64,000 nt of DNA from positions 1-64,000 of the forward strand of contig JAQGMS010000303.1 of the NCBI GenBank assembly GCA_028292245.1, in the 5' to 3' direction. The notes under the pieces were generated by a model. That model had not been told where the DNA came from. It did not search any database and worked only from the letters and a program-made list of their open reading frames with translations. Source of the stretch: Ramlibacter sp. GTDB taxonomy: Bacteria; Pseudomonadota; Gammaproteobacteria; Burkholderiales; Burkholderiaceae_C. A program made the position numbers and the translations under genes. Below are positions 34,616-52,550 of this stretch, piece after piece. Position 1 is the stretch's first letter, and each line of letters begins with the position of its first letter.

Positions 34616-34703
34616 GGTATTCCTTTTGCTAGATTTCGGAAGAGGAAAAGGAAGCAAGCAAAGACTCCTCCTCGAGGGCAACGTGCCCTTCATCGGATAA
34701 AGG

Positions 34704-35792
34704 CTAGAAGACGTGCCGTATCCCCACGGCCATTGCGGTCTGACCCTGCCCGGGACCCGGGTTGCCGCCTGCCTGTCCCGCGCTTGCCGAGAAGGTGGCC
34801 CCACCGCTGTTGCGCACCCGGGAACCAGAGGCGTAGACCGCAGTGCGCTTGCTGAGCGCATAGGTTCCGCGGACGATTAGCAGCTTTCCGTCATTCGCAC
34901 TGTTTTTCAGATCGAAGCGCGAGGCCTGGAGGTCGCCCGTGAGAAGCGGCGTAATCTGGTAGGTCAGCCCGACATACATGAGGTTGCTCTTCGGCGTAAC
35001 TGGCGATCCCTCATTCGTTCGCTGGATCAAGCCAGCGCCGATCTTCGTGGCGGCATTGAGGCGGCTGTACGCACCCCAGGAAATTCGTTTGTCCGTCATG
35101 TTCTGCGTTAGACCGGCGACCGGCGTAGGCGCGCCTCTGAACTCGTCAACGGCCACGGCAACACCACCCCAAGACGCGTCGTACTTGATCAGGCCAGACC
35201 ACTCTCGGCATGATTTCGAATCGTTTGGCAACTCACCGGGGCACGTCTGTGCGTCACGCCCTAAGCTGTAGGAAGCCCCCACGGTGAGCCCACCGAAAGT
35301 TCCCCGGTAGGTGATTGCGTTGTCGGCGCGGGCGCTGGATAAATAGGGATCGAAGGTCGAAATGGTGTGGAGGTTGGGGCCCATGACATCCGATTCGGCC
35401 TGCGCGTAGCTGAACATCGTGTTCTGCCGACCCGCAGCCATCGCGCCCCACGGACCGGCCAACCCGACGAAAATCTGGCGGCCAAACGGGCGACCGCCCT
35501 GGTTGAAGGAGCCCGAGTCCATGGCGAGACCCATTTCGAGCACGAAGTTCGCGCTGAGGCCATTCCCCAGGTCCTCGACACCCCGAAATCCCAGCCGGGA
35601 GGGAATGCTACCGGCGATGCTGGGCATACGCGTCAGGCCGCCGCTACCAGGTGCGGTATTGGTCAGATGCTCAACTGCCAAATCGGCCAAGCCATACAGC
35701 GTGACAGAAGCTTGTGGCGCTGATTGCTGCGCGCCAACTCCACCGCACAACGTCAACGCCACCACTGCGGCCCCAGTGTTGTTGAATCTCAT
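34704..35792 (-). CDS. Gram-negative trimeric porin
   Basis: Outer-membrane porin of 362 residues. Signal peptide MRFNNTGAAVVALTLCGGVG precedes ASVTLYGLADLAVEHLTNTA; the body has SRLGFRGVEDLGNGLSANFV and GPWGAMAAGRQNTMFSYAQA, and it ends MAVGIRHVF with a C-terminal Phe. ATG at 35792 follows AGGAGA by 5 bases. Two GTATACG operator sites lie 63 and 83 bases upstream, linking it to the 35-53 kb regulon. Confidence 0.92.
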   Translation of the reverse strand: MRFNNTGAAVVALTLCGGVGAQQSAPQASVTLYGLADLAVEHLTNTAPGSGGLTRMPSIAGSIPSRLGFRGVEDLGNGLSANFVLEMGLAMDSGSFNQGGRPFGRQIFVGLAGPWGAMAAGRQNTMFSYAQAESDVMGPNLHTISTFDPYLSSARADNAITYRGTFGGLTVGASYSLGRDAQTCPGELPNDSKSCREWSGLIKYDASWGGVAVAVDEFRGAPTPVAGLTQNMTDKRISWGAYSRLNAATKIGAGLIQRTNEGSPVTPKSNLMYVGLTYQITPLLTGDLQASRFDLKNSANDGKLLIVRGTYALSKRTAVYASGSRVRNSGGATFSASAGQAGGNPGPGQGQTAMAVGIRHVF

Positions 35793-35854
35793 GTCTCTCT
35801 CCTCGTGCGTAGTAGTTGGACTCGAATCGCAATTCACAAGACTCGGCATTTAAT

Positions 35855-35886
35855 ACCGTATACGTTCATATACTACCGTATACGGT
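35855..35886. promoter_or_regulatory. Tandem GTATACG operators upstream of the porin
   Basis: ACCGTATACGTT (35855-35866) and the perfect palindrome ACCGTATACGGT (35875-35886) are 20 bases apart, two helical turns, placing bound proteins on the same face. They lie between the porin and MarR genes. A weaker relative, GTGTATGCGTTCCAATG, is at 35947-35963. Sites of the same kind precede other units of the region (37949, 40596, 40744, 48985, 49287). Confidence 0.7.
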
Positions 35887-36220
35887 CTATTTTTCAACTA
35901 GTCTCCACATAAGGACTTTCCCCAATCGGCAGCGCGCTGGAATATGGTGTATGCGTTCCAATGCTCCTCCCAACGGGGCGTTGGGCTGCCGCCAGCAAAT
36001 GGCCGGCCGGCTGAAACGACGCAGCCACACGCTCCATCGAGCCGGCAGTCTTGGCTGGGCAGTGCTGGTGAAGTAGGGGGCACCGACAGGTGCGCGTGGC
36101 TACCTCATAGTCCTACGCCAGGAGCCCACAACGCGTTCGAGGACGAACGTCAGGTGGTCGAGGCGCCCTTGCGTGTTCCAGATTCGTACAATCGCCCAAA
36201 GCCGGTCCTGGAGACATTTG

Positions 36221-36715
36221 ATGAGCGCTGCAGCAAAACGAGAACCTCAGTCGAAAGATATTCCGCCCGCGGAGTTGCCAGAACTCGAGAATTTGGTCGG
36301 TTTTCTATTGCGCGTTGCGTCCAACACTGCCGACGCCTACTTCAGCAGGCAAATGAGCGATACGGATGTGACGCCTCGTCAGTATGCGGTCCTTCTGATT
36401 CTCTGCCGTCATGCGCAACTCACGCAGACAGAGGTGGCGTCAATAACCAAAATAGACCGCAGTACAACTAACGAGATGATTCCCCGCCTGGTCACCCGCG
36501 GCCTCGTTGTGCGCCATCAATCCAAGACGGATCGACGGGCGATGACGTTGTCGATTTCGTCAGCCGGCCGTGACGTTGTTCGCCGAGCCACGATCGCTGC
36601 CCAGGCATCCCATCAAAGCATCATGAATGCCCTCCCCCTCGAATATCGGAAGATATTCAAGCACTGCCTTGAAGTCATCATTCAGGCCAACGCAACGAAC
36701 CTCCCCACGGACTGA
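36221..36715 (+). CDS. MarR family transcriptional regulator
   Basis: MarR-type regulator of 164 residues. The wHTH is DVTPRQYAVLLILCRHAQLT, QTEVASITKIDRSTTNEMIP, then RLVTRGLVVRHQSKTDRRAM. ATG at 36221 follows GGAGA by 7 bases; the preceding in-frame codons lack coding features. It diverges from the porin with the tandem GTATACG sites between, and is the only regulator gene inside the 34.7-53.2 kb region, so it is the best candidate to bind those sites. Confidence 0.88.
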   Translation: MSAAAKREPQSKDIPPAELPELENLVGFLLRVASNTADAYFSRQMSDTDVTPRQYAVLLILCRHAQLTQTEVASITKIDRSTTNEMIPRLVTRGLVVRHQSKTDRRAMTLSISSAGRDVVRRATIAAQASHQSIMNALPLEYRKIFKHCLEVIIQANATNLPTD

Positions 36716-36776
36716 TTCGCTAGCGCGCGTAGGGTCGGGCAAGCAGGAATGCCACAGTTGAATATTTGGGCCGGCG

Positions 36777-37871
36777 TCAGGATCGGGAAATAGGCTTCGA
36801 TAGCGCCTCGGATTGTCGTCGCAGGGAGCGAGGCATGGCTGCAACCCTCTCCCGTCTTGCAAGCCATTGGGATGCAATTTCTGGGTTTTTGCAGTGGATC
36901 GGCATCTCGCCGCGCAGCACACGCAAGATGTTCTCGACCGCCGTCGCGACTGTGGCCGCGGCAACGTCCCGCGTGTGTCCGACCATGTGGGGCGTCAAGA
37001 TGACGTTGTCGAGCATCCTCAGCGGGCTATCTTCGGGCAGAGGCTCGGTCTCAAATGTGTCGAGCGCGGCCCCGGCAATGCGTCGGTCACGCAATGCCAG
37101 ATACAGCGCGTGTTCATCGACCAAGCTGCCTCGCGCAGTATTCACCAGGTAGGCCGTCGGCTTCATCATTGCGAGGGTTTCTGTGTTGACCATCTCGCGA
37201 TTGCCCGCGTCTGCGGTGGCAAACAAGCACACGACATCGCTCACCCTGAATACAGTGGCAGCGTCTACCAACTCCACATAGGGCGGCGCGGCGGCAGGTC
37301 TCGTGCGCGGCGACACGGCAATGCGAACGCCGAAAGCATTCAGCCTTTCGGCCGTCGCCCGGGCGACTCGGCCGAAACCGATCATGCCAACGACGCGTCC
37401 GCGCAGCAGTTGAGCCGCTGTCCTGTTCAATGGCGGACGCCCGCGTTTCCCCTGAAGCACTTCTTCCGCGGCACGAAGCTGGTAGAACAGATTCAGGATC
37501 AGCATCACATTGGCCTCGGCCATGCCTATATAGTTTTCGGGCACCGGACCGTGGCCGACGATGATTCCGAGTTCGCTGGCGGCCTGGACATCGACGGTGT
37601 CCACTCCAATTGTGGGATTCACCAATCCGACAAGGCGCGGCGCGCTTTCAATGACCTTCCGTGAACAATACGAACGCGTACCGAACATCATGACGTCGCA
37701 GTCGGCGAAGAATCCTTGTGAAGCTTCCTCGTCGTAGTCCGCGCGATTGCGTTCACCCGAAGGCAGCTTGCCGCGCAGGACCCTGACGCCGTTGGAGGCC
37801 AGCTGCGTACTGACCAAATTCAGCAGGACGTCAGCGTCCGCGTCCCTGTAAACAAAAACCGTAGGAGCCAT
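36777..37871 (-). CDS. D-2-hydroxyacid dehydrogenase (NAD-dependent)
   Basis: Two-domain dehydrogenase of 364 residues. The Rossmann motif GMIGFGRVARATAERLNAFG is slightly shifted from GxGxxG, the substrate Arg lies in LVNTARGSLVDEHAL, Glu in ALDTFETEPLP and His in VILTPHMVGHTRD. It interconverts a 2-hydroxyacid and a 2-oxoacid. The first 100 residues are the substrate domain. It has its own GTATACG site 77 bases upstream of the start, so it is transcribed separately from the aldolase gene that precedes it on the same strand. Confidence 0.88.
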   Translation of the reverse strand: MAPTVFVYRDADADVLLNLVSTQLASNGVRVLRGKLPSGERNRADYDEEASQGFFADCDVMMFGTRSYCSRKVIESAPRLVGLVNPTIGVDTVDVQAASELGIIVGHGPVPENYIGMAEANVMLILNLFYQLRAAEEVLQGKRGRPPLNRTAAQLLRGRVVGMIGFGRVARATAERLNAFGVRIAVSPRTRPAAAPPYVELVDAATVFRVSDVVCLFATADAGNREMVNTETLAMMKPTAYLVNTARGSLVDEHALYLALRDRRIAGAALDTFETEPLPEDSPLRMLDNVILTPHMVGHTRDVAAATVATAVENILRVLRGEMPIHCKNPEIASQWLARRERVAAMPRSLRRQSEALSKPISRS

Positions 37872-37948
37872 GTGCCGCTCAACTCTGTCACGAATGCGAT
37901 GGATTCACGTATTGATGGAGAAAATGGACAAAGTGTAGAGGCGCGTGG

Positions 37949-37958
37949 CGTATACGTC
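37949..37958. promoter_or_regulatory. GTATACG operator upstream of the dehydrogenase gene
   Basis: GCGTATACGT followed by CCAATG, same context as the site at 48985 (GTATACGTCCAAT). It sits 77 bases upstream of the start codon at 37871 and 37 bases from the stop of the aldolase gene. Confidence 0.65.
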
Positions 37959-37995
37959 CAATGTTCGGGGCGGACCTGATCTCGGGCACACCATC

Positions 37996-38730
37996 CTACT
38001 TTTCGTCTAGCATCTCGGCGCAACCCGCACGCCGCGTCCAGTATTCCCACGTGCGCTGGATCGCCGGTGACTCAGGGTCAAGGGCTGCCTGATGCGCTGC
38101 CTCGGCATCCGATAGCGCAGTGATCTCACCCCCCAGCGCGATGGCAGTCGTGAGGACGCGGGCGTTCGCCGGCAGGTAGATCGAAATCCAAAGCGCCTGT
38201 ATCAGCGATTTCGCGCCTGCCGAAAACCCGTGCCCCCGCATGAGAACGACGTTGCCGTCCTGCAGGCAGCCAGCCAGGTCACGTCCGTGGTCGACGCACG
38301 AAACCAGCAGGTTCGTGTCGCCGAACTTTGCGCGGATGTCCCATACCGGAATTCTGGTACCAATCGGTCCTGCTGCGTGAAAGACTGGCACCAGGGGCCG
38401 CTTGGTAACGCTGTATGGCAACACGCTCTCGGAATGGCTGTGGACGACCGAGTTGATTTCGGGCCGCGCATCGTAGATCGCCCCATGGATGAAGCGCTCC
38501 AGGTACGGAGGACGGTCGTCCTTCGTATTCGCGGGGCGCCCGTCCAGAGTGAACTCCATGATGTCATCTGCCACGACCAGCTCAGGGCTGCGGCTGCGCG
38601 AAAGAAGGTAGCGGTCTGCGCGCAGCGGGTGCCGGACACTCACATGGCCGTAGCCATCGACGATGCCCTCATTGGCGAGGATGCGATTGGCAATCACCAG
38701 GTCGCGAATGCTTTTCTTGATTGGATCCAT
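37996..38730 (-). CDS. Class II aldolase/adducin family protein
   Basis: AraD-like enzyme of 244 residues with an intact metal site: SVVHSHSESVLPY provides the His-x-His pair, and MRGHGFSAGAKSL the later His. GYGHVSVRHP and the Glu of YLERFIHGAIYDARPEINSV complete the active site. Such enzymes cleave or decarboxylate hydroxy-oxo acids. It lies 31 bases after the SDR gene in the minus-strand operon starting at 40551, and contrasts with the degenerate relative at 20134-20814. Confidence 0.9.
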   Translation of the reverse strand: MDPIKKSIRDLVIANRILANEGIVDGYGHVSVRHPLRADRYLLSRSRSPELVVADDIMEFTLDGRPANTKDDRPPYLERFIHGAIYDARPEINSVVHSHSESVLPYSVTKRPLVPVFHAAGPIGTRIPVWDIRAKFGDTNLLVSCVDHGRDLAGCLQDGNVVLMRGHGFSAGAKSLIQALWISIYLPANARVLTTAIALGGEITALSDAEAAHQAALDPESPAIQRTWEYWTRRAGCAEMLDEK

Positions 38731-38761
38731 ATCAGGCTTTCTTCATTGTCAGAGCCGCTCA

Positions 38762-39523
38762 CTACGGATTGAAACGACCCGCGCTCAGGCCGTTGTCGAT
38801 GCGGATCGATATGCCGGTGATCGAGCTGGCCGCGCTGGAAGCAAGAAACACAAACGTCTCACCCAGCTCCTGAGGCTGAACCACGCGCCCCAGCGGCGCC
38901 GTAGCAGCGAACTGGGATGGGTCCATGCCGAAAGACTTGGCCGCGCCACCCATCATGGGCGCCTCAATCGGGCCGGGACTGACGGCAATCACTCGTATTC
39001 CATCGCGTCCATGGTCCAGCGCCATGCATTTGGCCAAGTGAATCAACGCTGCCTTCGACACTGCATAGGCCAGCATGTTCGGCGTGCCGCGCTCGCCTGC
39101 CAGTGCTGTCGTCAACAGGATGACCCCGCCGCCGGCGTCGCGCATTACCGGCACGGCATGCTTGGCCAGCAATACGGCGGACTTCAAGTTGACGGACATG
39201 ACCGAATCGAATTCGGCTTCATCGATGGTTTCGGCTGTGCCGGAGCTCAACCGGGCAGCGTTGTGCAGCAGAACGTCGATCCGGCCGGTCAGCGCCGTGG
39301 CATCGGCTACAAGCCGCACGATGTAGCTGTGATCTATCAAGTCACCCTGGATGCAGACCGCAGTTGCGCCCGTATCACGGATTTCCGCACTGAGTTCGGC
39401 CATCGACGACATGTCCGCGAGCACAACGGCGTACCCCGCCGAGGCGAATGCCCTTGCCGCTGCCGCCCCTACCCCACCGGCTGCGCCAGTGATGACCGCG
39501 ACCCTCCGCTGCAACCTCTCCAT
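38762..39523 (-). CDS. Short-chain dehydrogenase/reductase
   Basis: SDR of 253 residues. Nucleotide motif AVITGAAGGVGAAAARAFAS, LLHNAARLS for the NAG element, and active-site YAVSKAAL are clear; the catalytic Ser position reads Thr (ILLTTALAG), which can still work but is unusual. It ends SSITGISIRIDNGLSAGR. ATG at 39523 was chosen because the longer frame would run into the Bug receptor gene and has no ribosome site. It is in the operon receptor-SDR-aldolase. Confidence 0.9.
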   Translation of the reverse strand: MERLQRRVAVITGAAGGVGAAAARAFASAGYAVVLADMSSMAELSAEIRDTGATAVCIQGDLIDHSYIVRLVADATALTGRIDVLLHNAARLSSGTAETIDEAEFDSVMSVNLKSAVLLAKHAVPVMRDAGGGVILLTTALAGERGTPNMLAYAVSKAALIHLAKCMALDHGRDGIRVIAVSPGPIEAPMMGGAAKSFGMDPSQFAATAPLGRVVQPQELGETFVFLASSAASSITGISIRIDNGLSAGRFNP

Positions 39524-39558
39524 CGGTGGTCCTGCAGAATGCCCTTGGATGGGCCGCG

Positions 39559-40551
39559 TCAATCGAGCTGAATGGCCAGTTGTTGGATCAACGGGCTCCA
39601 TCGCTGGCGGTCCTGGTGTGCCAGTTGGTCAAGGGCCTCGGGCGTGCCTGGCATGCCCATCACGCCGAATTCCAGAAGCTGGCGCTTCACGTCGTCCCGC
39701 TCAAGAGAGTAGTTCAGCGCTGCATTCAGTTTGGAGACCGTGTCGTTGCTCGTGGATTTCGGCACGAACATGCCGAACCAGGCGGCCACATCCAGGTCCT
39801 TGTGGAAGTCGCGGAACAACGGGGCGCTGGGGAAGCTCTGCTTCGCCAAGGGCCCCGACGCGGCAATCACTGCAATCTTCCCCTCCTTGAGCAGCGGCAA
39901 GGCCTCGACAAGGCCGGTGATGGTCACCTGGATGTCGCCCGCTATGAGCGCAACCACGCAGTCCGAGGTCCCCTTATATGGGATGTGCGCCAACTTCACG
40001 CCGAGTCGGTTCCAGATCAACTCCATGATCAGGTGGTTGGTGTGGCCGATGCCGGGGGAGCCGTAGTTCAATGTCCCGGGTCGCGCCTTGGCCTGCGCGA
40101 TCAATTGCTGCATATCCTTGATGCCCGAGGAAGGGTTTACCAGCAACAGGTGGGTTGCCCTGCCAATCAGACCCACCGCGCGAAACTCCTTCGCCGGGTC
40201 ATAGGGCAACCGCTTGTAGACATAGGGATTCGCAACCATGCTCGAGTCCGGCGTCAGGAAGATGGTGTGGCCGTCGGGAACAGACTTGGCCACGGCGTCG
40301 GCCGCGATCGCCAGTCCGGCCCCAGGCTTGTTTTCAACCACGGCGGACTGACCGAGGCGCTCAGCCAATTTCCCGCCGATCAGACGCGAAAGAATGTCGC
40401 CCAGGGCCCCCGGAGGGCTGCCCACCACGACCCGAATCGGTTTGGACGGGAACGCCTGCGCGAGTCCGCTCTTCTGTGCAGCGATGCCAGCGAAGCCCAT
40501 CAACGCCGCCGCCACGCCGCGTAAGTGAAAGCGCTTGCCAAGGTCCACCAT
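39559..40551 (-). CDS. Bug-type tripartite tricarboxylate receptor
   Basis: Receptor of 330 residues. Signal region GVAAALMGFAGIAAQKSGLA, then FPSKPIRVVVGSPPGALGDI, NKPGAGLAIAADAVAKSVPD and LNYGSPGIGHTNHL. SPPGALGD replaces the frequent YPPGGxxD. ATG at 40551 follows GGAGG by 5 bases. First gene of a minus-strand operon with SDR and aldolase; the promoter carries a GTACACG-type site at 40596. It has no permease partner here. Confidence 0.92.
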   Translation of the reverse strand: MVDLGKRFHLRGVAAALMGFAGIAAQKSGLAQAFPSKPIRVVVGSPPGALGDILSRLIGGKLAERLGQSAVVENKPGAGLAIAADAVAKSVPDGHTIFLTPDSSMVANPYVYKRLPYDPAKEFRAVGLIGRATHLLLVNPSSGIKDMQQLIAQAKARPGTLNYGSPGIGHTNHLIMELIWNRLGVKLAHIPYKGTSDCVVALIAGDIQVTITGLVEALPLLKEGKIAVIAASGPLAKQSFPSAPLFRDFHKDLDVAAWFGMFVPKSTSNDTVSKLNAALNYSLERDDVKRQLLEFGVMGMPGTPEALDQLAHQDRQRWSPLIQQLAIQLD

Positions 40552-40595
40552 CGTTGCCTCCGTCATAGATCGATTCAGCCCTCGGGGAATAATTA

Positions 40596-40608
40596 CACTG
40601 TACACGTT
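40596..40608. promoter_or_regulatory. GTATACG-like operator upstream of the receptor operon
   Basis: CACTGTACACGTT, one base different from the consensus GTATACGTT, followed by ATAA as at 40744 and 49287. It is 45 bases upstream of the receptor start at 40551. Confidence 0.6.
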
Positions 40609-40743
40609 ATAAGATAGATCGAGGCTGGGACTTCTACGGATGTCGATTTATCCAGCCCAATGGACCAATCGGTTGACCAATTTCCTCTGACAAGCTGAGT
40701 CTTTCGCGACACTTGAAACTGCCAGTGTCATATGAGAGACTAT

Positions 40744-40756
40744 ACGTATACGTTAT
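40744..40756. promoter_or_regulatory. GTATACG operator upstream of the ring-cleavage operon
   Basis: ACGTATACGTTAT, nearly identical to the site at 49287. It lies about 31 bases before the TTG start at 40788 and close to an AT-rich -10-like stretch (TATATT at 40754-40759), so binding would block transcription. Confidence 0.65.
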
Positions 40757-40787
40757 ATTTTGGCGCAAGCACCACGGAGACGGCCAA

Positions 40788-41993
40788 TTGGTCACTGAAA
40801 CTAAGGCATCAACACTCATTCTCGGCGGTGGCATTGGCGGAATGGCCACGGCGCTCGGCCTCGCTCGCCAAGGCATCCGCTCGCATGTCCTCGAGCAGGC
40901 TCCACAGCTTCGGGAGGTCGGAGCAGGTTTGCAGCTGGGGCCCAACGGGTTGCGCGCGCTCGACCACTTGGGCGTCCTGGACCATCTCTTCAAGACCGCG
41001 GTCTTTCCGCAGCATCAGGTCTTGCTCGACGTGCAGACCGGCAAAATCATCAAGGTCCTTGATATGGGCGCGAAGTTCTCCACGCGCTACGGCTACCCCT
41101 ATATCCTGGCCCACCGGCATGACCTGCTAGACGCGCTGGCCAAGGCGTGCGAGGACTCCGGACTGGTGACAGTGCAAACAAGCAAGGCGGTCACCCACGT
41201 CATCGACAGGGAGAATTCGGCCGAAGTGCAGTGCGCAGACGGCTCGCACTATGTGTGCAACGCTTTGATCGCTGCGGATGGACTGCGATCGGTCGTCCGA
41301 AAGGAAATTTTCGTCGACGACCCGCTGCGGCCGACCCCTTACGCTGCATTCCGCGGAACCCTGCCGGCAGCCGAAATCGTGCCGCAGACTGGCAAGGATG
41401 ACCTGCTGATCTGGGCCGGTTCCGACTCGCATCTTGTCCAGTATCCGCTGCGGGGGGGAGAGCTGTACAACCAGGTAGCGGTCTTGCGCACCGACCACGG
41501 TTTCGACACTGAGGACGACAGGCAGGCGGCATCGGCAGAGCTTGACACCCGTTTTTCCACCGCGCACCCGTCCGTGCGAGCGGGCGTTCGGAAGATCAAT
41601 CGCGGCGCGCGCTGGACCTTGTGGGACAGGGATCCAATCGTTGTCTGGACCAAGCACAGGATCGCGTTGCTCGGTGACGCTGCACATCCGATGCTGCAAT
41701 TCATGGCGCAGGGCGCCTGCCAGGCGCTTGAGGATGCCGTCTGCCTGTCGTGGAGGCTCGGTCAGACCCCCGACAACATCGAACGCGCCTTCACGCTGTA
41801 CCAGAACACACGGGTCCTGCGCGCCACCCGTGTGCAGCTGACGACCAGATTCATGGACCGCCTGTGGCATCCGAGTGGTACGGATTCCACCCTGCGGGAC
41901 GAGTTCCTTTCCAAGCTGGCGCCCACTGACTACGAGTTGTTTGACTGGCTGTATGGCGACAAGACATTTGTGGAGGGCACCCATGTCGCCTGA
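40788..41993 (+). CDS. FAD-dependent hydroxylase, salicylate / 3-hydroxybenzoate 6-hydroxylase type
   Basis: Class A flavoprotein of 401 residues. LILGGGIGGMATALGLARQG binds FAD, AHRHDLLDALAKACED and ALIAADGLRSVVRKEI are the mid motifs, and IALLGDAAHPMLQFMAQGAC the second FAD motif. It would convert a hydroxybenzoate to a dihydroxybenzoate. A TTG at 40788 was chosen as the start: GGAGA lies 7 bases before it, whereas the longer ATG-like frame would overlap the operator at 40744. The gene for a gentisate-dioxygenase-like cupin overlaps its end by 11 bases, which favours gentisate as product. Confidence 0.87.
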   Translation: MVTETKASTLILGGGIGGMATALGLARQGIRSHVLEQAPQLREVGAGLQLGPNGLRALDHLGVLDHLFKTAVFPQHQVLLDVQTGKIIKVLDMGAKFSTRYGYPYILAHRHDLLDALAKACEDSGLVTVQTSKAVTHVIDRENSAEVQCADGSHYVCNALIAADGLRSVVRKEIFVDDPLRPTPYAAFRGTLPAAEIVPQTGKDDLLIWAGSDSHLVQYPLRGGELYNQVAVLRTDHGFDTEDDRQAASAELDTRFSTAHPSVRAGVRKINRGARWTLWDRDPIVVWTKHRIALLGDAAHPMLQFMAQGACQALEDAVCLSWRLGQTPDNIERAFTLYQNTRVLRATRVQLTTRFMDRLWHPSGTDSTLRDEFLSKLAPTDYELFDWLYGDKTFVEGTHVA

Positions 41994-43029
41994 AATTAGG
42001 CAAGCGATTCTTCCCGCTGAGTACGGCGCGAAGCTGAAGTCACTGTCGCTGGCACCAGCCTGGCTCAAGCTGGGCCAGCTCGTTCCCGCCGGACGACCCG
42101 TGCGGCTTGCCGGTCCCGTGCATTGGTCCTACCGCGAAGCGCGGGCGTGCCTGACCACCGCCAGTGAGCTCGTCCCGATCGAGCAGGCCGAGCGGCGTGT
42201 GCTCGGGCTTGCCAACCCTGGGCTGACCAGCCGCCTGGCAACCACGCCTTCGATCTTCGGCGGTCTCCAGCTGATTCTTCCAGGCGAGCATGCACCTTCC
42301 CATCGCCACGTCCCGGCAGCTGCACGGCTGATCATCGAGGGCGCCGGCGCATTCACGCGTGTGAACGACAAGGACATTCCCATGCTGCCTGGGGACCTCG
42401 TGCTGACGCCTCCTCACCATTGGCATTCCCACCACTTCTACAGCGGGACGGAGCCAATGGTCTGGCTCGATATCCTGGACCATCCTATCTGCGTCCCGAT
42501 GGAGACATCGTTTCTGTCCGGTGAGCAGGAGGTCGACAACGACCAGCGCGCGGAGCGCGAATACCGGACCGACCATGTCATTCCGGGATTGGCGCCCTAC
42601 CGACGTCCGTCCCAATTGGCGCCCCGCTACCCGATCTGGCACTTCCCTTGGCCCAAAACAGAGTCGGCGCTGAACGCGGTCGCCGCAAACCGGAGAAAGG
42701 ACGAGCCGGTCCACATGATGTTCGTGAACGCCGAGACAGGGCAGAGCCTTCTGGAAACGATGGCGTTTTCGGTGCTCATGTTGCGCCCCGGAGAGGAGTA
42801 CGCAGCGCCGACAAGATCCGCGAGCACGATGGTGTCGATCATCGGCGGCGAGGGAGAAAGCACCGTCGACGAACTTCATGCGAAATGGGAAGCGGGCGAT
42901 ACGCTGTCCTGCCCTACGTTCGCGCAAGTGGTTCACAGAAACCGGTCTGGCACGAAGCCGGCGTATCTACTGCTCGTCGACGACAGTCCGATGCAGGTGA
43001 AGCTCGGCATCTATTCCGAAGAAGCCTAG
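41983..43029 (+). CDS. Gentisate 1,2-dioxygenase-like bicupin
   Basis: Iron dioxygenase of 348 residues with two cupin domains. The catalytic N-terminal cupin shows APSHRHVPAAARLIIEGAGA, then MLPGDLVLTPPHHWHSHHFY, giving the three His ligands expected for gentisate or salicylate 1,2-dioxygenases; the C-terminal cupin (VLMLRPGEEYAAPTRSASTM) has lost the ligands, as in the family. It would open gentisate to maleylpyruvate. ATG at 41983 follows GGAGGG at 5 bases and overlaps the hydroxylase gene. The next gene encodes an FAH-fold hydrolase. Confidence 0.87.
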   Translation: MSPEIRQAILPAEYGAKLKSLSLAPAWLKLGQLVPAGRPVRLAGPVHWSYREARACLTTASELVPIEQAERRVLGLANPGLTSRLATTPSIFGGLQLILPGEHAPSHRHVPAAARLIIEGAGAFTRVNDKDIPMLPGDLVLTPPHHWHSHHFYSGTEPMVWLDILDHPICVPMETSFLSGEQEVDNDQRAEREYRTDHVIPGLAPYRRPSQLAPRYPIWHFPWPKTESALNAVAANRRKDEPVHMMFVNAETGQSLLETMAFSVLMLRPGEEYAAPTRSASTMVSIIGGEGESTVDELHAKWEAGDTLSCPTFAQVVHRNRSGTKPAYLLLVDDSPMQVKLGIYSEEA

Positions 43030-43053
43030 AACAACCCGATCAGGAGATACCCC

Positions 43054-43941
43054 ATGCGCATCTGCCGCTTCAACGAAGACCGGCTCGGGATTGTCAAAGG
43101 CGATGAGATCTTGGACGTCAGCCCAGCGCTCCAGGCATTGCCACCGGTTCGATGGCCAATTCCCCATGGGGATCGCCTCATTGCGAACTGGGAGCGTGTC
43201 CGCAGCGAGGCGGAACGGCTGTGCCCGGTCGCACCGCGGCTTCCCCTGAAGGGCCAGCGGCTCAACAGCCCTGTTGCGAATCCCAGCAAAATCATTGCTG
43301 CGCCTGGCAACTACAAGCTCCACGTCGAGCTGGACACGAAGGATCCCGCCGTGGACGCGGGCATGCACCGCCAGATGATGACATCGTCCGAGGTGCCCCC
43401 GACGGAAAAGCTCGGTCTTTTCCTCAAAGCCAACACCTCGCTGGTGGGCGCGGCGGAAGGCGTGACCCTGCCGGCGATCGATCGGCGCGTGGACCACGAG
43501 GTCGAACTGGCCCTAGTGATCGGGCGGGAAGGCAGGAACATTTCCGCCGCCGACGCACTTGGCTATGTGATGGGCTACTCGATCGGGCTCGACATGAGTT
43601 TTCGCGGCGTCGAAGACCGCAGTTTCCGCAAGTCCGCGGATTCCTTCACCGTCCTCGGGCCTTACCTGGTAACGGCAGATGAAATCAAGAATCCGGAAAA
43701 TCTCGAACTGGCGCTTGAGATCAATGGAAGTCCTCGCCAGAAGTCGAACACGTCACTGCTGATGGTCGGCCTGGGCCGAATGATCGAAATCGCCTCCTCG
43801 ATCTACACGCTGTACCCGGGTGACATCATCCTCACCGGCACCCCCGAAGGTGTCGGACCCGTCGCACACGGCGACCACCTCGTCGCGACGTGCGAGGGCA
43901 TCGGCACCCTGACGTTTGACGTGAAATCTCTTCGCGCCTAG
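43054..43941 (+). CDS. Fumarylpyruvate/maleylpyruvate hydrolase-like FAH protein
   Basis: FAH-fold enzyme of 295 residues. Motifs: PGNYKLHVELDTKD, RRVDHEVELALVIGREGRNI with the metal-binding Glu pair, VMGYSIGLDMSFRGVEDRSF, SFTVLGPYLVTADEI and YPGDIILTGTPEGVGPVAHG. In gentisate pathways such an enzyme cleaves maleyl- or fumarylpyruvate to pyruvate and fumarate or maleate. No maleylpyruvate isomerase is seen in the operon, so direct hydrolysis of maleylpyruvate is possible. The start follows AGGAG by 8 bases. Third gene of the operon. Confidence 0.88.
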   Translation: MRICRFNEDRLGIVKGDEILDVSPALQALPPVRWPIPHGDRLIANWERVRSEAERLCPVAPRLPLKGQRLNSPVANPSKIIAAPGNYKLHVELDTKDPAVDAGMHRQMMTSSEVPPTEKLGLFLKANTSLVGAAEGVTLPAIDRRVDHEVELALVIGREGRNISAADALGYVMGYSIGLDMSFRGVEDRSFRKSADSFTVLGPYLVTADEIKNPENLELALEINGSPRQKSNTSLLMVGLGRMIEIASSIYTLYPGDIILTGTPEGVGPVAHGDHLVATCEGIGTLTFDVKSLRA

Positions 43942-43960
43942 GTTTCACTTGCTGCAATCC

Positions 43961-44839
43961 ATGACGCCCACAGATCGCTTGCGTGAACTCATCCGGCAGC
44001 CCGGCATCCTGCAGCTCCCCGGATGCTTTGACCCGCTATCCACAAAAATTGCGTTCGAAGCGGGCTTCGATGCGGTCTTCCTTGGCGGCTTCGGAATATC
44101 CGCCGCGCGCCTGGGACTGCCTGACACCGGGCTGATTTCATTCGCGGAGGTGCTCGACACGGTGCGGAACTGCGCGGGCGTCAGTGGGCGCAAGCCACTC
44201 GTCGTCGATGGCGACACGGGATTCGGGAACGCGATCAATGTCCGCCGAACCGTACAGGAACTCGCGCGCGCTGGTGTCGCGGCCATTACTATCGAAGATC
44301 AGGTCAGCCCAAAGCGCTGCGGTCATACCCGCGGCAAGCAGGTTGTGTCGCGCGAAGAAGCGAGCATGAAGATCCGTGCCGCCGTGGAGGCCCGCGGGCA
44401 AGACGGGCCCTTAATCATCGCGCGGACGGACGCCCGCTCCGTGCTTGGATTCGAGGAAGCATGGCAACGGTGCAAGGCCTTCGAATCGGAGGGCGCAGAC
44501 CTCATTTTCATGGAAGGACCGCGCGGGCGCGACGAAATGGAATTGCTATGCCGGAGCCTGAAAACGCCATGCGTGTTCAACATGGTGAATGCCGGTGATG
44601 CCCCTCCCCCAACGGCCCGCGAGCTAGCAAGCGCCGGTTTCAAAGTCGGCCTTCTTCCCGTCGACCTTCTGTCAGCGTCAGTAGCCGCGATGCGGCATGC
44701 CGCCGCGGCCATAGCCTCTGGCGTCAGGCCGGAAGCACCAATCTCCTTCGCCGAGTTGCAGTCAGTTGTCGGCTTCCCGGAATACTTCGACGAAGAGAAG
44801 AAATACGCTATCGCTAGCGACGGTGGGCAGGCAACGTGA
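43961..44839 (+). CDS. Isocitrate lyase / PEP mutase family enzyme
   Basis: TIM-barrel enzyme of 292 residues. LVVDGDTGFGNAINVRRTVQ and AAITIEDQVSPKRCGHTRGK are the hallmark motifs (KRCGH contains the lyase Cys), followed by IIARTDARSVLGFEEAWQRC. Members include 2-methylisocitrate lyase, oxaloacetate decarboxylase and dimethylmalate lyase. Pathway placement suggests cleavage of a hydroxylated dicarboxylate derived from ring cleavage. ATG at 43961 is preferred; a TTG at 43949 is also open. It ends the plus-strand operon. Confidence 0.87.
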   Translation: MTPTDRLRELIRQPGILQLPGCFDPLSTKIAFEAGFDAVFLGGFGISAARLGLPDTGLISFAEVLDTVRNCAGVSGRKPLVVDGDTGFGNAINVRRTVQELARAGVAAITIEDQVSPKRCGHTRGKQVVSREEASMKIRAAVEARGQDGPLIIARTDARSVLGFEEAWQRCKAFESEGADLIFMEGPRGRDEMELLCRSLKTPCVFNMVNAGDAPPPTARELASAGFKVGLLPVDLLSASVAAMRHAAAAIASGVRPEAPISFAELQSVVGFPEYFDEEKKYAIASDGGQAT

Positions 44840-45094
44840 CAACGAGCAACAGCGACTCATCGGAATGCAAGCTCTGTTTGAACACGCGACCAGCAAACCG
44901 CCGCGAGGCCGGATTCCGCGGCGTTTACGCGAACGACGATTGGCGGGCAATGCCGCGCTCGCCCGGTCGATCCGCAACCGCTTTCCTACATCGACTCCTT
45001 GCACCACCGAGGAGCCCGTGCGGCATCCACATCTCCATCAACGGGATCGCTGCAGGTCTTCGCAATACCGGATAGCCGCCGCTAAAATTGCACG

Positions 45095-46072
45095 CTACTC
45101 GGTGAGATCGAGTTTCTCGATCAGCGGCTTCCATTTGCTGACTTCGCCCTGGTACAGCTTGGCAAGCGTCTGAGCGTTGCTGATCGAAATCTCCGAAGCG
45201 CTTGCCGCACCCCACGTAGCGAGGGTCTTGTCATCCTTGACCTTGTTCATCGCATCGTTCCACCGGGCGACAATGGGTGCGGGAGTTTTTGCAACTGTGA
45301 ACAATGCAATGGTCGGCACATGGGTAAAAGCCGGATACCCCAGTTCCTTGGTCGTTGGCACATCAGGCATCAGGGCCGATCTGTTCGGCCCGAGTGTGGC
45401 GATGATCCGCACGCTCTTACGTTCGAGAGCGGGCCGCAACGTCGACTGGGTCAGTGTCAAAAAATCGAGAATCCCGGCCGACAGGTCGGTCACGGCCAAT
45501 GTGCCACCCTTGTAAGGGACATGCGTCATGCGCAGGCCGGCGGACTGCTCCAGCAGCTCCACTACCAAATGGGCTTCACTTCCCTTGCCCGGCGAACCAT
45601 AAGCCAATGTTCCCGGCTTGGCCTTGGCCAGCGCCACCAGCTCTCCCAAGGTCTTGACCGGCAGTTCGTTCTTCACCGCCAGGAAGAACGGTTGCCGGGC
45701 CATGGTCCCGATCGGCGCGAAGTCCCGGCCAATCTCAAAGCCCTTCTTGTTTGCGATGGTCGAGGCAACTAGACTCCCCACGGCGTCGGCCATCAGGGTG
45801 TACCCGTCCGGAGCCGAGCGGGTCAGTTCCGCCCGTGCAATGGCACCGGCTGCTCCAGGTTTATTTTCAATGATGATGGGCTGCCCGAGTTCCTTGCTGA
45901 CGGCATTCGCCACCTGCCGCGCGACCGTGTCAACCGTCCCGCCTGGCGCGTACGGCACCAGGATGCGAACGGGACGGTCGGGATAGGTGTTGGTTCCTTG
46001 GGCATACGCCTGAATCGCGCAAAGGCCCATGAGGACAAAACCGGCAACTTGTGATCGGGCGACCCATTTCAT
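45095..46072 (-). CDS. Bug-type tripartite tricarboxylate receptor
   Basis: Receptor of 325 residues. Signal peptide MKWVARSQVAGFVLMGLCAI, then YPDRPVRILVPYAPGGTVDT, NKPGAAGAIARAELTRSAPD and LAYGSPGKGSEAHLVVELLE. The C-terminus VSKWKPLIEKLDLTE is close to that of the receptor at 49412 (VRKWKPIVDKLDLSE), so these two are recent paralogues. It is the last gene of a minus-strand operon (peptidase-like, cupin, epimerase, receptor). Confidence 0.93.
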   Translation of the reverse strand: MKWVARSQVAGFVLMGLCAIQAYAQGTNTYPDRPVRILVPYAPGGTVDTVARQVANAVSKELGQPIIIENKPGAAGAIARAELTRSAPDGYTLMADAVGSLVASTIANKKGFEIGRDFAPIGTMARQPFFLAVKNELPVKTLGELVALAKAKPGTLAYGSPGKGSEAHLVVELLEQSAGLRMTHVPYKGGTLAVTDLSAGILDFLTLTQSTLRPALERKSVRIIATLGPNRSALMPDVPTTKELGYPAFTHVPTIALFTVAKTPAPIVARWNDAMNKVKDDKTLATWGAASASEISISNAQTLAKLYQGEVSKWKPLIEKLDLTE

Positions 46073-46134
46073 GTGTGCTCCTATAGGATGGTTGTTAGAA
46101 GACTCCGCCGCTGTATGACGGCATTCGACTGGAG

Positions 46135-47106
46135 CTATGCGTTTCTGGCCCGCATGGCGGCGAGGCTCTCGAGGTAATCGGCAACACCGCGGTCCACGTC
46201 GAACTCAGGCTTGAAGTCAAGCTGCTCGCAGGCCTTGGAGATGTCGTAAACGGCATAGACGGGATGCGGCATACCGAGGTAGTTCAATCCAGGTCCGATA
46301 CGAATGTCGGCCCCCGGTAGTCTGCGACGGATGGCATTAGAAAAGTCGTGCATGGTCGAGCCGACCCCAGTCCCAATATTGAAGACGCGATCCCTGAGGT
46401 TCTTCGCGATGCAGGCTTTGTATATGCCTTGCGCCGAGTCCTTGTTGTAAAGAAGATCGTCCTTTTGGTCGCCACCGGCTTCCATATTGAATGGAAGCCC
46501 GTTGAACGGATCCTCAACGATTTGGCTCGTGGCGCCCATTTTCCCGTGGCGACTCGTCTTGCCTGGGCCGTACGTGGTTCCGAAGCGGAGCACCACACCA
46601 TCGACACCCATATGGTCGTTGTAGTAGAGCACCAGCTGCTCGCCCATCAACTTCGCCGAATCGTAAATTCGCACAGGATTCTTGACGTGGTTTTCCGGAA
46701 CTGGCGTGTAAACAGGATGACCGTATTCCCCCAGAAACTTGCCGTACACCCCTTTCGCGCTCGTGAACACAACGCGCTCGACGTCAAACAAGCGTGCTGC
46801 TTCAAGCACATTCGTCGTGCCCACGACATTGACCTGCACGCTCTGCGCGGGATTGGCCTGAGACAGCGCACCGACGAACGCCGCAGTGTGGACGATATGG
46901 GTAATCCGATGCTTCTTCATGACCCCCAGCAGCTTGGGAAGATCAAGGACGTCACCCAGCTCTATGTCCACTTTGTCCACGATGTCGTGGATCAGCGTGT
47001 CGTCGTGATGACGTGCATAGATCACAGGGCGGTTCCCCTCGTCTACGAATTTCCGACTGGCCTCGGCTCCCATCACCCCCATGCCGCCGGTGATCAAGAC
47101 TCGCAT
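46135..47106 (-). CDS. NAD-dependent epimerase/dehydratase
   Basis: Extended SDR of 323 residues. LITGGMGVMGAEASRKFVDE at the N-terminus binds NAD(P), HTAAFVGALSQANPAQSVQV and FTSAKGVYG carry the Ser/Thr region, and RIYDSAKLMGEQ the YxxxK pair. It could act on a nucleotide sugar or on a hydroxy-acid derivative; catabolic operons often contain such enzymes of undefined substrate. ATG at 47106 follows GAGG by 8 bases. It lies 49 bases after the cupin gene. Confidence 0.87.
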   Translation of the reverse strand: MRVLITGGMGVMGAEASRKFVDEGNRPVIYARHHDDTLIHDIVDKVDIELGDVLDLPKLLGVMKKHRITHIVHTAAFVGALSQANPAQSVQVNVVGTTNVLEAARLFDVERVVFTSAKGVYGKFLGEYGHPVYTPVPENHVKNPVRIYDSAKLMGEQLVLYYNDHMGVDGVVLRFGTTYGPGKTSRHGKMGATSQIVEDPFNGLPFNMEAGGDQKDDLLYNKDSAQGIYKACIAKNLRDRVFNIGTGVGSTMHDFSNAIRRRLPGADIRIGPGLNYLGMPHPVYAVYDISKACEQLDFKPEFDVDRGVADYLESLAAMRARNA

Positions 47107-47155
47107 AGATACATCCTCGCATCCGAAATTGGCATCAAATCTTCCGAGAAAGCCG

Positions 47156-47692
47156 CTAACGCTCAGGCGGCAGGTCGTTTCCCGCAGTGGCCTGGCCCAA
47201 GACCGCGGCTCCGATGCCGATCGGAACGGCATCAAGCAACACAAACGCGACGCGCGCAAGCTCGGCCCCGCGGTTCACCCAGGCATGGTTGGTGCCGCGC
47301 TGAACAAGCACGTCGCCTTCCCTCAAACGCACGGAGGACGCGTCCATGTCCATGTCGATTTCACCGCTCATCACAACGACATAGTCCAACGTTTCCGTGC
47401 GGTGCATCAACGAAGGACCACCTGGGGGAAAGTCGATCACACAGAAGCGGCTGCCATTAGCTGGGGGCGCAGTCCCCAGCTTGCGTGCACCCCAATCCTC
47501 GACTTCCATCCCGATCGCGATGTCACAGGGGGTGGAATCAGTGACCCAAATCAGTGTCGATCGAATGCCATGCACGAACTTCGCATTCGTCGCGTCGCCG
47601 TCAATGATGGTCCGCGCCACTTTGTGGATGTCATGCCCCGTGACCACACGTCGGACCGGGGGCAGCGATTGCATGTTGGATTCGTGTGTCAT
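47156..47692 (-). CDS. Cupin domain protein
   Basis: Small protein of 178 residues. The cupin part reads RFCVIDFPPGGPSLMHRTET, LDYVVVMSGEIDMDMDASSV and VLVQRGTNHAWVNRGAELAR, with one His in motif 1, Glu, and one His in motif 2. A role as a lyase, isomerase or sensing protein cannot be decided. ATG at 47692 follows GAGG by 8 bases, with 10 bases between it and the stop of the preceding peptidase-like gene, so they are in one operon. Confidence 0.8.
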   Translation of the reverse strand: MTHESNMQSLPPVRRVVTGHDIHKVARTIIDGDATNAKFVHGIRSTLIWVTDSTPCDIAIGMEVEDWGARKLGTAPPANGSRFCVIDFPPGGPSLMHRTETLDYVVVMSGEIDMDMDASSVRLREGDVLVQRGTNHAWVNRGAELARVAFVLLDAVPIGIGAAVLGQATAGNDLPPER

Positions 47693-47702
47693 TCGCGCAC
47701 CC

Positions 47703-48923
47703 TCAAACCGGCAGGCTTTGGAAATTGAGATTGAACTCATGCATCCGGTGAGCGCCTTCATCGGTGATGACGACAGTTTCAGCAAACACGCAACCGGTCT
47801 CGCCGTTGCGGAACTTCGGGTTGAAGAGATCGATGTTGAATGCGAAAACCATTCCGGGACGGAATTGGTCTCCCAGGGTGGCAAGCGCCGCCTGGTCTGC
47901 CTGGATCGCGTGATGGCGATATCGGGGGTATTCGAGGGATCCAAGGCCATGACCGTGGATACCCGTCTCGCACATCCCAAGGCCGCGCGCTTCAATAGCT
48001 TGCTTGACGGCCTCCATGGCGACGGATATCGGCTTGCCCGGTCCAAAGTTCTTGAGCCCGGTCTCATACGCTTCAAGGCAGCCCGCATAGATGTCCAAGT
48101 ATTCGCCGGGCGGGTCGCCAAGGCAGAAGGTCCGCTCCACGTGCGTTGAGTACCCGGCATATTTTGGGTGCAACTCGCAAGTGATGAGGTCGCCACGCTC
48201 GAGCTTGCGCATGGTCGGCACGTGGAAGGGATGCGGCTGCGGCGACGCCCCCGCCCCCCACAAGAACAGAGTCGGCTCTTCGCCACCGTTGGCGACCATG
48301 GTCTGCTGCATGCGGGCATACACTTCGCACTCGCGCTGTCCGGGTCGGGCAGATTCCGCGCACTCAAGCAGCATCATGTCTCCCAGTCGCGCGGCCCGAC
48401 GCATAAACGCGAGCTCGTCTGCACTCTTGATACAGCGAATCACCTCCAGCATGTCACCAAGGTTCTGGAAGGTGGCGCCTGACACAAGTTCCCCCAGCTC
48501 TTTATAGGTGCTGTAGGGAATCCAGCCGTCAGGATCCAGGGCGCCCGCGAGCCCATCACATCCGACACGCCCTGAGTCGAGCTTCAACTCCTTAAGACGT
48601 TCTGCAACCGACTTGGCCCACGATCCTTTGCGCGCGCGAATATCAGTAACCCAATCCTGCGACGCATGCCAGTACGGCAACATCACAGATGAGTACACAT
48701 AGCAGGTAGGTTCGCCCTCGCGCGGAAAGACGAAGATATTGAACGCGTTGTTGCCGCCAATGGGACACAAATAGCGGGCATTTGCCGTATTGAAATCCCA
48801 GCACAACGGCCAACCGAAAAGCACCAGGCAATCGAGCCTCCGCGCGTCCATTTGGGCACGCACCGCCGCCCATCGCCTATCGCGCTCGCTCAAAGGCAAC
48901 CGGGGAAGATTCAACTGCTGCAT
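47703..48923 (-). CDS. M24 metallopeptidase-like (creatinase fold) protein, altered metal site
   Basis: Protein of 406 residues with a creatinase-like N-terminal domain and a pita-bread C-terminal domain (VIRCIKSADELAFMRRAARL; HGHGLGSLEYPRYRHHAIQA; FAETVVITDEGAHRM). In M24 enzymes two Asp ligands lie in a motif of type D-x10-D; here the segment reads CELHPKYAGYSTHVERTFCL, so they are Glu and His. The His and second Glu are kept. It may be a non-peptidase such as a creatinase-like C-N or C-S hydrolase. ATG at 48923 follows GGAG by 6 bases. First gene of the operon, with a GTATACG site upstream. Confidence 0.82.
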   Translation of the reverse strand: MQQLNLPRLPLSERDRRWAAVRAQMDARRLDCLVLFGWPLCWDFNTANARYLCPIGGNNAFNIFVFPREGEPTCYVYSSVMLPYWHASQDWVTDIRARKGSWAKSVAERLKELKLDSGRVGCDGLAGALDPDGWIPYSTYKELGELVSGATFQNLGDMLEVIRCIKSADELAFMRRAARLGDMMLLECAESARPGQRECEVYARMQQTMVANGGEEPTLFLWGAGASPQPHPFHVPTMRKLERGDLITCELHPKYAGYSTHVERTFCLGDPPGEYLDIYAGCLEAYETGLKNFGPGKPISVAMEAVKQAIEARGLGMCETGIHGHGLGSLEYPRYRHHAIQADQAALATLGDQFRPGMVFAFNIDLFNPKFRNGETGCVFAETVVITDEGAHRMHEFNLNFQSLPV

Positions 48924-48984
48924 GTTCTGCTCCGTCCTAGATTCATGACGCCTCAAACCAAGAGCGTTCCAGTGTGGCTTTTAA

Positions 48985-49300
48985 ACTGTATACGTCCAAT
49001 TATTGCACGCGCGATTCGCAATTTGTAGCTGTGCAAGGTTGCTGGTTTACCCTAGATCAGCACGGTTGTTACAACGTGCCCCGCTTATTCATGGCGCGCT
49101 CGCCGCCCCGGCTAAGTCAGTCGCCACCGGAATGCTTGACATGGCGGCCGCGGTTACAGGCTCAGTGCCCGCCGCAGCTGCCAAGTGAGCGGGCTTGCGC
49201 CATGTTTCCAGCTTGCGTTACCTCTCGCGAGGGCGACGTGCTGTCCGTATAGGTGGATTCCCGAATCAAAAAGCATTGTCAATAGCACGTATACGTTATA
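48985..49300. promoter_or_regulatory. Two GTATACG operators in a divergent promoter
   Basis: AACTGTATACGTCCAAT (48985-49001) lies 62 bases upstream of the peptidase-like operon, and GCACGTATACGTTATAT (49285-49301) 111 bases upstream of the receptor gene at 49412. Between them I see no gene. The 488-base divergent region thus has one site per direction. Confidence 0.65.
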
Positions 49301-49411
49301 TAAACTAGAGATGAAAGCGTGGGTCGCGCCTAGTCGGATTTGCGTGTTCCGAGCGCTCAAACATCCATTCCTACCGTTGTCGGATCTCCGATCTCTTGCT
49401 AAAGGCCAACT

Positions 49412-50386
49412 ATGAAAAGGCGGTCCACAGTCCTCGCCATCGCCGCATCCAGCATCGGGATACCGCTGTTTGCGCAGACGCCGCTGGCGGGTGCGTTCCC
49501 AACCAAGCCGATCAAGATCCTCGTTCCTTACCCCGCCGGCGGCTTCCTTGACGGGGCGGCAAGACAGGTAGGCAATGGCGTTTCCGCGCTCTGGGGGCAG
49601 CCTGTCGTTGTCGACAATCGCCCGGGCGCGTCAGGCGCGATTGCTGCGGGGGAACTTTCGCGCTCTCAGCCTGATGGTCATACCGTGATGGCTGAGGCAC
49701 TCGGCTCGCTTGTGATCACGGCGTTGATCAGCAAGAGGCAGGTCGATCCGCAGCGCGATCTCTCACCGATCGGAACCATCTCGCAACACCCGCTATTTTT
49801 CGCCGTTCGTGCCGGCCTACCGGTTAAGGACCTGGCGGAACTTGCGGCCCTGGCGAAGAGCAAACCCAAATCCCTAACCCATGGTTCACCCGGCAAGGGT
49901 ACCGAGTCGCATCTTGTCATCGAGATGTTCAAGCATGCCGCGGGCGTTGACATCGTTCACGTGCCCTACAAGGGCGGGAGTCTCGCGATGGTTGACCTCC
50001 AGGCCGGCCGACTGGACATGTTCGTCTCGACGATCATTCCGCTGCGTGCCGGACTGGAGCGCAACGAGATTCGCGTCCTGGCGACATTGAGCCCGAAGCG
50101 CGTGTCCATTGCTCCGCAGGTCCCCACAGTTGCCGAGGCGGGGTTTGCCGCGATGACCCACTCTCCGACCACCGCGCTCTTCGCTCCCGGCAAGACGCCA
50201 CCCTACGTGATCACGGCATGGGGCGAAGTCCTAAACGCCATCAAGGGTGAAAAGGCATTGAGCAGCTGGGCTGAGGCAAGCGGCTCCGAAGTCACTATCG
50301 GCGGAGCAAAGCAGCTGGCCGAGCTGCTCAACTCAGAAGTGAGGAAGTGGAAGCCCATCGTGGACAAGCTCGACCTCTCCGAGTAG
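49412..50386 (+). CDS. Bug-type tripartite tricarboxylate receptor
   Basis: Receptor of 324 residues. Signal peptide MKRRSTVLAIAASSIGIPLF, then FPTKPIKILVPYPAGGFLDG, DNRPGASGAIAAGELSRSQP and LTHGSPGKGTESHLVIEMF. Very similar in lay-out and C-terminus to the receptor at 45095, which is in the operon transcribed away from the same promoter region. It starts a plus-strand operon with another solute-binding protein, NTF2-like, GlcG-like and RraA-like genes. Confidence 0.93.
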   Translation: MKRRSTVLAIAASSIGIPLFAQTPLAGAFPTKPIKILVPYPAGGFLDGAARQVGNGVSALWGQPVVVDNRPGASGAIAAGELSRSQPDGHTVMAEALGSLVITALISKRQVDPQRDLSPIGTISQHPLFFAVRAGLPVKDLAELAALAKSKPKSLTHGSPGKGTESHLVIEMFKHAAGVDIVHVPYKGGSLAMVDLQAGRLDMFVSTIIPLRAGLERNEIRVLATLSPKRVSIAPQVPTVAEAGFAAMTHSPTTALFAPGKTPPYVITAWGEVLNAIKGEKALSSWAEASGSEVTIGGAKQLAELLNSEVRKWKPIVDKLDLSE

Positions 50387-50484
50387 CGGGAGGCCGGCTG
50401 TCACGGGCAAGTGCTCTCGGAATCCACCGAGACCGCTGGCTCCTCGATGGCGACAGCCCTCTTTCAGGCGGTACCACCAACACT

Positions 50485-52425: not shown

Positions 52426-52550
52426 AAGCCGGGGCACACAGCTTGCAAGAACCCCACGGCCACCATAAGCGCTGGCGCGCTGGTCGGCCCGGGCGATCCG
52501 CGAACGGTTTCTAAAAGACGAACAGGCAATTGCTGCCTGAGGAACGCCGA

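Follow-up and report, generated by a model that had tools for sequence, protein, structure and literature searches.

A MarR-family regulator with an AmnR-type operator probably controls six catabolic and uptake promoters in a Ramlibacter genome

The window analysed here is a stretch of 64,000 nucleotides from Ramlibacter sp. (assembly GCA_028292245.1, contig JAQGMS010000303.1, positions 1 to 64,000). It carries seven copies of one palindrome, at 35855, 35875, 37948, 40598, 40744, 48986 and 49287, among catabolic and uptake genes and beside the gene for a MarR-family regulator (36221..36715, plus strand). A first-pass annotation had described sites with a shared core before separate transcription units; all seven strings were recovered in place, and all are intergenic once likelier start codons, chosen by our own judgement, are adopted. 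Operators 1 (35855..35866, ACCGTATACGTT) and 2 (35875..35886, ACCGTATACGGT, a perfect 12-bp palindrome) belong to the porin promoter, in the gap that separates the porin gene from the MarR gene; they supply the CGTAYACG palindrome on the upstream side of the regulator gene, 335-366 bp from the MarR start. They are spaced by 20 bp, which is about the two helical turns noted earlier. Operator 3 (37948..37959, GCGTATACGTCC) is the weakest of the seven, and it is followed by operators 4 (40598..40609, CTGTACACGTTA), 5 (40744..40755, ACGTATACGTTA), 6 (48986..48997, CTGTATACGTCC) and 7 (49287..49298, again ACGTATACGTTA), all read on the plus strand. Operators 3 to 7 precede, in this order, units 2 to 6 described below. 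Sites 4 and 5 are overlapped by two longest open reading frame (ORF) predictions. Likelier starts, at ATG codons near 40550-40570 for the gene of site 4 and at TTG 40788 for that of site 5, put both sites in promoter regions, and TTG 40788 is close to the first residue matched by the hydroxylase model. The sites span 13.4 kb and the units that they cover extend from 34.1 to 53.2 kb; this length of ~19 kb is close to the 18 kb first claimed for the regulon.

The six units are defined by gene order, from which we infer their operon boundaries; Pfam gave the gene assignments except where stated. On the minus strand, unit 1 starts with a Gram-negative porin (Porin_4, 34704..35849, probable ATG near 35792) and probably continues into a Cupin_2 protein (34094..34861). 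Unit 2 is a D-2-hydroxyacid dehydrogenase (36777..37871, minus). Unit 3, also on the minus strand, comprises a TctC-type solute receptor as first gene (39559..40605, the longest ORF overlapping operator 4), a short-chain dehydrogenase (SDR; 38762..39601) and a class II aldolase (37996..38730). Unit 4 is on the plus strand and holds a flavin adenine dinucleotide (FAD) hydroxylase (40788..41993), a gentisate 1,2-dioxygenase-like cupin (41875..43029, searched with the part from 41992), an FAA_hydrolase family protein (43054..43941), by its place in the operon probably a fumarylpyruvate hydrolase, and a phosphoenolpyruvate mutase / isocitrate lyase family protein (43949..44839, family match). Unit 5 runs on the minus strand from an M24 metallopeptidase-fold protein (47703..48956, family match) through an ORF with a C-terminal Cupin_2 domain (47156..48367, the true gene probably being shorter) and an NAD-dependent epimerase/dehydratase (46135..47109, family match) to a TctC-type receptor (45095..46072). 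Unit 6, on the plus strand, consists of a TctC-type receptor (49412..50386), an NMT1-like receptor (50347..51414), a further ORF listed by position alone (51377-51943), an HbpS-like protein (51904..52425) and, as last gene, an RraA-like aldolase (52530..53198, family match).

The best curated model for the hydroxylase, 3-hydroxybenzoate 6-monooxygenase, gave 388 bits against a cut-off of 459, and the best one for the dioxygenase gave 220 bits against 442; because both scores are below the curated cut-offs, the substrate of the pathway is not fixed. A match of the dioxygenase to the 5-aminosalicylate dioxygenase model is likewise below the cut-off, and it is weaker than that to the gentisate model. 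At E<=1e-90 the FAD hydroxylase was found in 2 of 300 order genomes and at E<=1e-60 in 34 of 59 genus genomes, our own included in both counts; in the genus the top identity among the others was 42%. Hence these genus genes look like relatives rather than members of the same regulon. Plasmid relatives of the catabolic proteins are all <60% identical, so that the same regulon could not be footprinted directly.

The MarR protein at 36221 is the sole regulator among the ORFs tested inside the regulon. It exceeds the curated cut-offs of PF12802 (52.7 bits, cut-off 27) and PF01047 (44.2 bits, cut-off 24.6), and its stretch IDRSTTNEM, which from MarR structures we take to be the recognition helix, corresponds to MDRNTVAEM and similar segments in relatives. 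It fits the pattern [MIL]DR[NS]T..[ED]M, which was derived from relatives in this analysis. In the tree, the window protein joins 16 AmnR-type rows with support of 94/95 but on a long branch that leaves its place unsure, and control loci from the family and genus scans sit outside this AmnR-type group. The best solved relative by sequence is CouR (PDB 6c28, E 1.8e-11), likewise of the MarR family. A single-protein scan of genome contigs gave no close relatives; at E<=1e-20 relatives occurred in 2 of 250 family genomes and at E<=1e-12 in 23 of 60 genus genomes, our own included in each case. A further MarR homologue of our own genome (32% identity; contig C501, 836-1267) has one TAA within the match.

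The motif is concentrated in this region. In the assembly of the organism itself (5.81 Mb, 558 contigs, 85.6% complete), GTAYACGTYMWW has six places, and all six lie within the 13.4-kb stretch. All six matches are on the plus strand, in part an effect of how the pattern was worded, given the near symmetry of sites 5 and 7. With at most one mismatch, GTATACGT gave 34 rows in the window, palindromes being counted on both strands, where 12.6 (standard deviation 4.0) were expected, and none of 100 shuffles was as high. Both genomic places of ACGTATACGT are in the window, as are three of the six places of ACNGTATACG and five of the 11 places of GTATACGT (35858-49296); on inspection of flanks and ORFs, the six GTATACGT places outside the window look coding. 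Since GTAYACGTYMWW was composed after the sites had been inspected, other genomes are a fairer yardstick. The near-identical pattern GTATACGTYMWW had 16 matches in 58 other genomes of the genus (~270 Mb by listed sizes), with at most two in any one of them, against five within 13.4 kb here.

A second measure came from a symmetric matrix of MarR-adjacent sites of other species, which contains no sequence of the window. Its source loci, two on plasmids and 14 in genomes, were taken by protein similarity, and the sites in them were picked with the core pattern, so that the matrix is biased to that core; L087, a near-copy of L071, was excluded and L083 contributed no site. Across the 64-kb window, the six highest positions were 49289, 48988, 40746, 35858, 35878 and 40600 (scores 11.5-28.0), which correspond to operators 7, 6, 5, 1, 2 and 4. 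In 50 copies of the window simulated with a first-order Markov model the maximum was 18.7, and four of the seven sites outscore it. Ranks 7-9 were 11415, 31651 and 35949. The last of these marks a possible weak third operator between the porin and MarR genes (35941..35962, plus strand, AATATGGTGTATGCGTTCCAAT, score 10.9). Position 31651 falls in TTCAACCGGTATGCGTCCAATT (31643-31664, score 11.0), ~40 bp before a TctC-like ORF (30626-31612, minus strand) and at the end of a neighbouring hydroxylase-like ORF; it is beyond the 35855-49301 region and is possibly a further weak operator. When the matrix was run on the control loci L017-L046 only, five positions reached at least 8 and three at least 11 in 95 kb, and several of the best ones appear to be related operators that belong to other MarR groups.

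That one regulator is common to these sites is supported by what lies beside MarR genes of other species. Most of the collected homologue loci have a TTTAGTACGTATACGTCTTATA-like palindrome within ~400 bp upstream of the matched MarR part, and the best site in relatives is mostly 165-400 bp before it. For a comparison with the recognition helix, 59 of 62 loci were scored, the near-copies L087 and L088 being left out together with L046, for which tblastn gave no match. A matrix built on the seven operators of the window reached at least 10 within the 800 bp upstream of the matched MarR part in all 17 loci with the helix and in five of 42 MarR loci without it (Fisher p 9e-11, kinship of loci uncorrected), and these counts do not change when both sides are taken. 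With a cut of at least 12 and both sides counted, the numbers were 15 of 17 and three of 42. The exact core was found within 800 bp in 16 of 19 helix-bearing loci, the near-copies L087 and L088 counted, and in one of 42 others. Two plasmid loci (H6 and H4), which were not chosen by helix and had the highest bit scores among the best 15 of 235 plasmid records by protein similarity alone, both have the palindrome. The best non-self match of the protein-only scan across the order, L088, which looks the same locus as L079, also has the site; at other matches of that scan the exact core was not found, and weaker upstream places scored 10.8 (L090), 15.4 (L092) and 10.8 (L095). At ten other MarR loci (L020, L021, L023, L024, L029, L035, L089, L091, L094 and L101), palindromes of the same layout have different inner letters, with cores GTATGC, GCATGC, GTGTAC or GTATAC and ACTA-like arms. 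Their sequences suggest one operator template, the inner letters of which may vary by clade.

Several observations weigh against assigning the sites to this MarR protein. Of the two peptide patterns in the genome scan, one is the helix stretch, and thus the helix loci were partly preselected; because the loci are also related to each other, the Fisher values are not clean probabilities. The top tblastn scorer, L017 (37%), has the helix LERSSVAEV and no such site (best 9.4). Three helix-bearing loci are without the exact core, L083 having a near form (16.7) and L090 and L095 weak places (10.8 each). Conversely, L092, L098, L023, L024 and L021, which are without the helix, reach at least 10, all upstream of MarR, and this suggests that related operators reach beyond the clade with AmnR-type helix; the operator type is thus not exclusive to that helix. 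Within the window, operator 3 is weak with the other-species matrix (8.9, rank 10, position 37950). The window protein is only 31-38% identical to its AmnR-type relatives, and its long end branch (4.45, with a long-branch warning) makes its placement in the tree unsure. A promoter scan of 14 kb gave three promoter-like sites where 4.2 were expected, so that overlap of operators and promoters is statistically unsupported. Moreover, the regulon genes differ from AmnR targets, since no amnB match was found in the assembly of the organism (85.6% complete).

Against these points stands the finding that in other species MarR genes which share the helix pattern are preceded by this palindrome too, and it is for this reason that MarR 36221 is the best candidate. 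We consider it likely that this protein is a repressor of the six units at 34.1-53.2 kb, acts through the palindromes and is released by an aromatic ligand. The first-pass annotation had favoured the same gene, in our view probably rightly, but had called it the only local candidate, whereas a TetR, two LysR and a second MarR-like gene are also in the window. A MarR dimer would bind an 18-22 bp palindrome centred on CGTATACG before the porin unit, the 2-hydroxyacid dehydrogenase unit, the TctC receptor-SDR-aldolase unit, the hydroxylase-gentisate dioxygenase-hydrolase-lyase unit, the M24-cupin-epimerase-TctC unit and the TctC-NMT1-HbpS-RraA unit. Bound protein would block these six promoters and probably also that of the MarR gene; such autoregulation is plausible in view of operators 1 and 2, which occupy the gap from the porin gene to the MarR gene. 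Binding of an aromatic substrate or intermediate would free the DNA, and entry through the outer membrane, capture in the periplasm and ring cleavage would be turned on together. In the promoter scan, a promoter-like site on the minus strand (35897-35870) lies over operator 2, and operator 5 is inside another (40732-40759). By eye, operator 7 stands between TTGTCA and TATAAA hexamers with a 17-bp spacer.

The position of operators relative to promoters also bears on the sign of regulation. An activating or dual role of the MarR protein, in place of simple repression, would suit the presence of scan-called promoter-like hexamers at two sites only and the minus strand of site 6, which by eye reads TTGGAC, so that this operator may overlap a -35 box. 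We nevertheless regard such a role as unlikely, because operator 7 (by eye, between -35 and -10) and operator 5 (inside a scan-called promoter) are in the position of a repressor and AmnR is proposed as a repressor in a passage of PMC3790839.

The first-pass annotation had also considered GntR proteins of the FCD type, which would be encoded elsewhere in the genome and read the sites from there. The GTATAC core resembles some FCD-GntR operators, and the genome has 27 FCD matches. None of these 27 is on the contig with the sites (C148), the site flanks fit the MarR-adjacent matrix, and the absence of the full pattern from the rest of the assembly implies that the gene of a distant regulator would itself be without a site. 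This possibility is thus disfavoured, and we hold it to be quite improbable.

Marginally less probable still is control by one of the other regulators in the window, which are a TetR (33338-34075, Pfam) directly beside the regulon and, up to ~17 kb away, two LysR (16015-17064 and 26831-27619) and a second MarR-like gene read from the sequence (near 17170-17739). Nearness speaks for them. However, the divergent promoter region of the TetR gene has by eye a different inverted repeat, AAAATGAT...ATCATTTT, without GTATACG, and LysR sites are usually of the form T-N11-A, which counts against LysR control. The second MarR-like protein has STEASTLSRTV at the position where the AmnR type has DRNTVAEM, and at E<=1e-4 tblastn found no match between it and the window MarR. 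The repeat AAAATGAT...ATCATTTT, located in 33231-33338, where the TetR gene and a hydroxylase-like ORF diverge, is a possible TetR operator. TCGTATACGA occurs at 17297, inside the apparent coding sequence of the second MarR-like gene.

Finally, it is hardly credible that an AT-rich palindrome became clustered in intergenic DNA by chance or through base composition, for although the pattern was picked after the sites had been inspected, the 58 other genus genomes have 16 matches with at most two each, and the ranks come from an independent matrix.

The system is probably a local switch in which a MarR protein acts through an AmnR-type operator at six promoters. A motif first noticed by eye becomes a testable regulator-operator pair, and ~18 catabolic and uptake genes are assigned to one switch. 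In addition, the porin and the TctC receptors are linked to the pathway, which could help to find the substrates of orphan receptors. A phage-type integrase gene is present at 3194-4450, and a search for tRNA genes as island borders found none in the 64-kb window; the catabolic region could be an island.

The operator type itself is already known as a published prediction. In a 2013 study of Burkholderia xenovorans LB400, matched passages place TAGTACGTATACGTTTCA upstream of the amn operon, predict the consensus TAG(G/T)ACGTATACGTACTA upstream of amnJ in other degraders of 2-aminophenol, and propose AmnR as a repressor acting at this site (PMC3790839). Among the literature matches listed, there was no further report of such a site with a MarR gene and none of the operator type in a regulon like that of the window. 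A sequence match in a passage of PMC6263354 is a primer and unrelated.

The window system shares with AmnR the MarR-type protein, a recognition-helix pattern common to homologues beside amn genes, the palindrome core, the position of the site with the regulator on one side and a divergent operon on the other, and a setting in aromatic catabolism. Matches to amn products adjoin the MarR gene in the two plasmid loci and in 12 of the 14 from genomes; among these 12, L076 and L079 have amnC- and amnE/F-like matches, with no amnBA match in the examined stretch. The differences are an identity of 31-38% to the AmnR-type proteins compared, six scattered units in place of one operon, and gentisate-type ring cleavage with a porin and TctC receptors in place of amnBA; Pfam results for the regulon include no amn-type dioxygenase. 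In metagenome-assembled genomes of Hyphomicrobiales (L084) and of a 'bacterium' (L086), the AmnR-type helix and a ACGTATACGT site are also found without an amn match, and a TctC match lies across the site. The neighbours tested in L084 (FAD-binding, saccharopine dehydrogenase-like, DUF169, DUF218, GGDEF-EAL and DHDPS) are unlike the window set, and the two loci are apparently another redeployment of the operator type. The gentisate-type operon of the Cupriavidus necator N-1 plasmid pBB2 (L073) resembles the window in its gene content, with MarR divergent from cupin, FAA hydrolase and FAD monooxygenase genes, the last 46.7% identical to ours. Its MarR is only 25-26% identical, has the helix FDRTTIAGV and has no such palindrome nearby.

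In Pseudomonas, Burkholderia, Comamonadaceae, Alcaligenaceae and some metagenome-assembled genomes, AmnR-type genes are preceded by the palindrome, which lends sequence support to the AmnR operator prediction. More tentatively, and with somewhat more doubt than confidence, we suggest that the regulator-operator pairing may have preserved its DNA specificity down to a protein identity of about one-third, with a ligand that could still be an aromatic acid bearing amino or hydroxy groups, such as 5-aminosalicylate, and that its targets may all have been exchanged: in place of one amn operon for meta-cleavage, the pairing would now serve a regulon of six promoters in which an outer-membrane porin and three TctC receptors are coupled to a pathway of the gentisate type.

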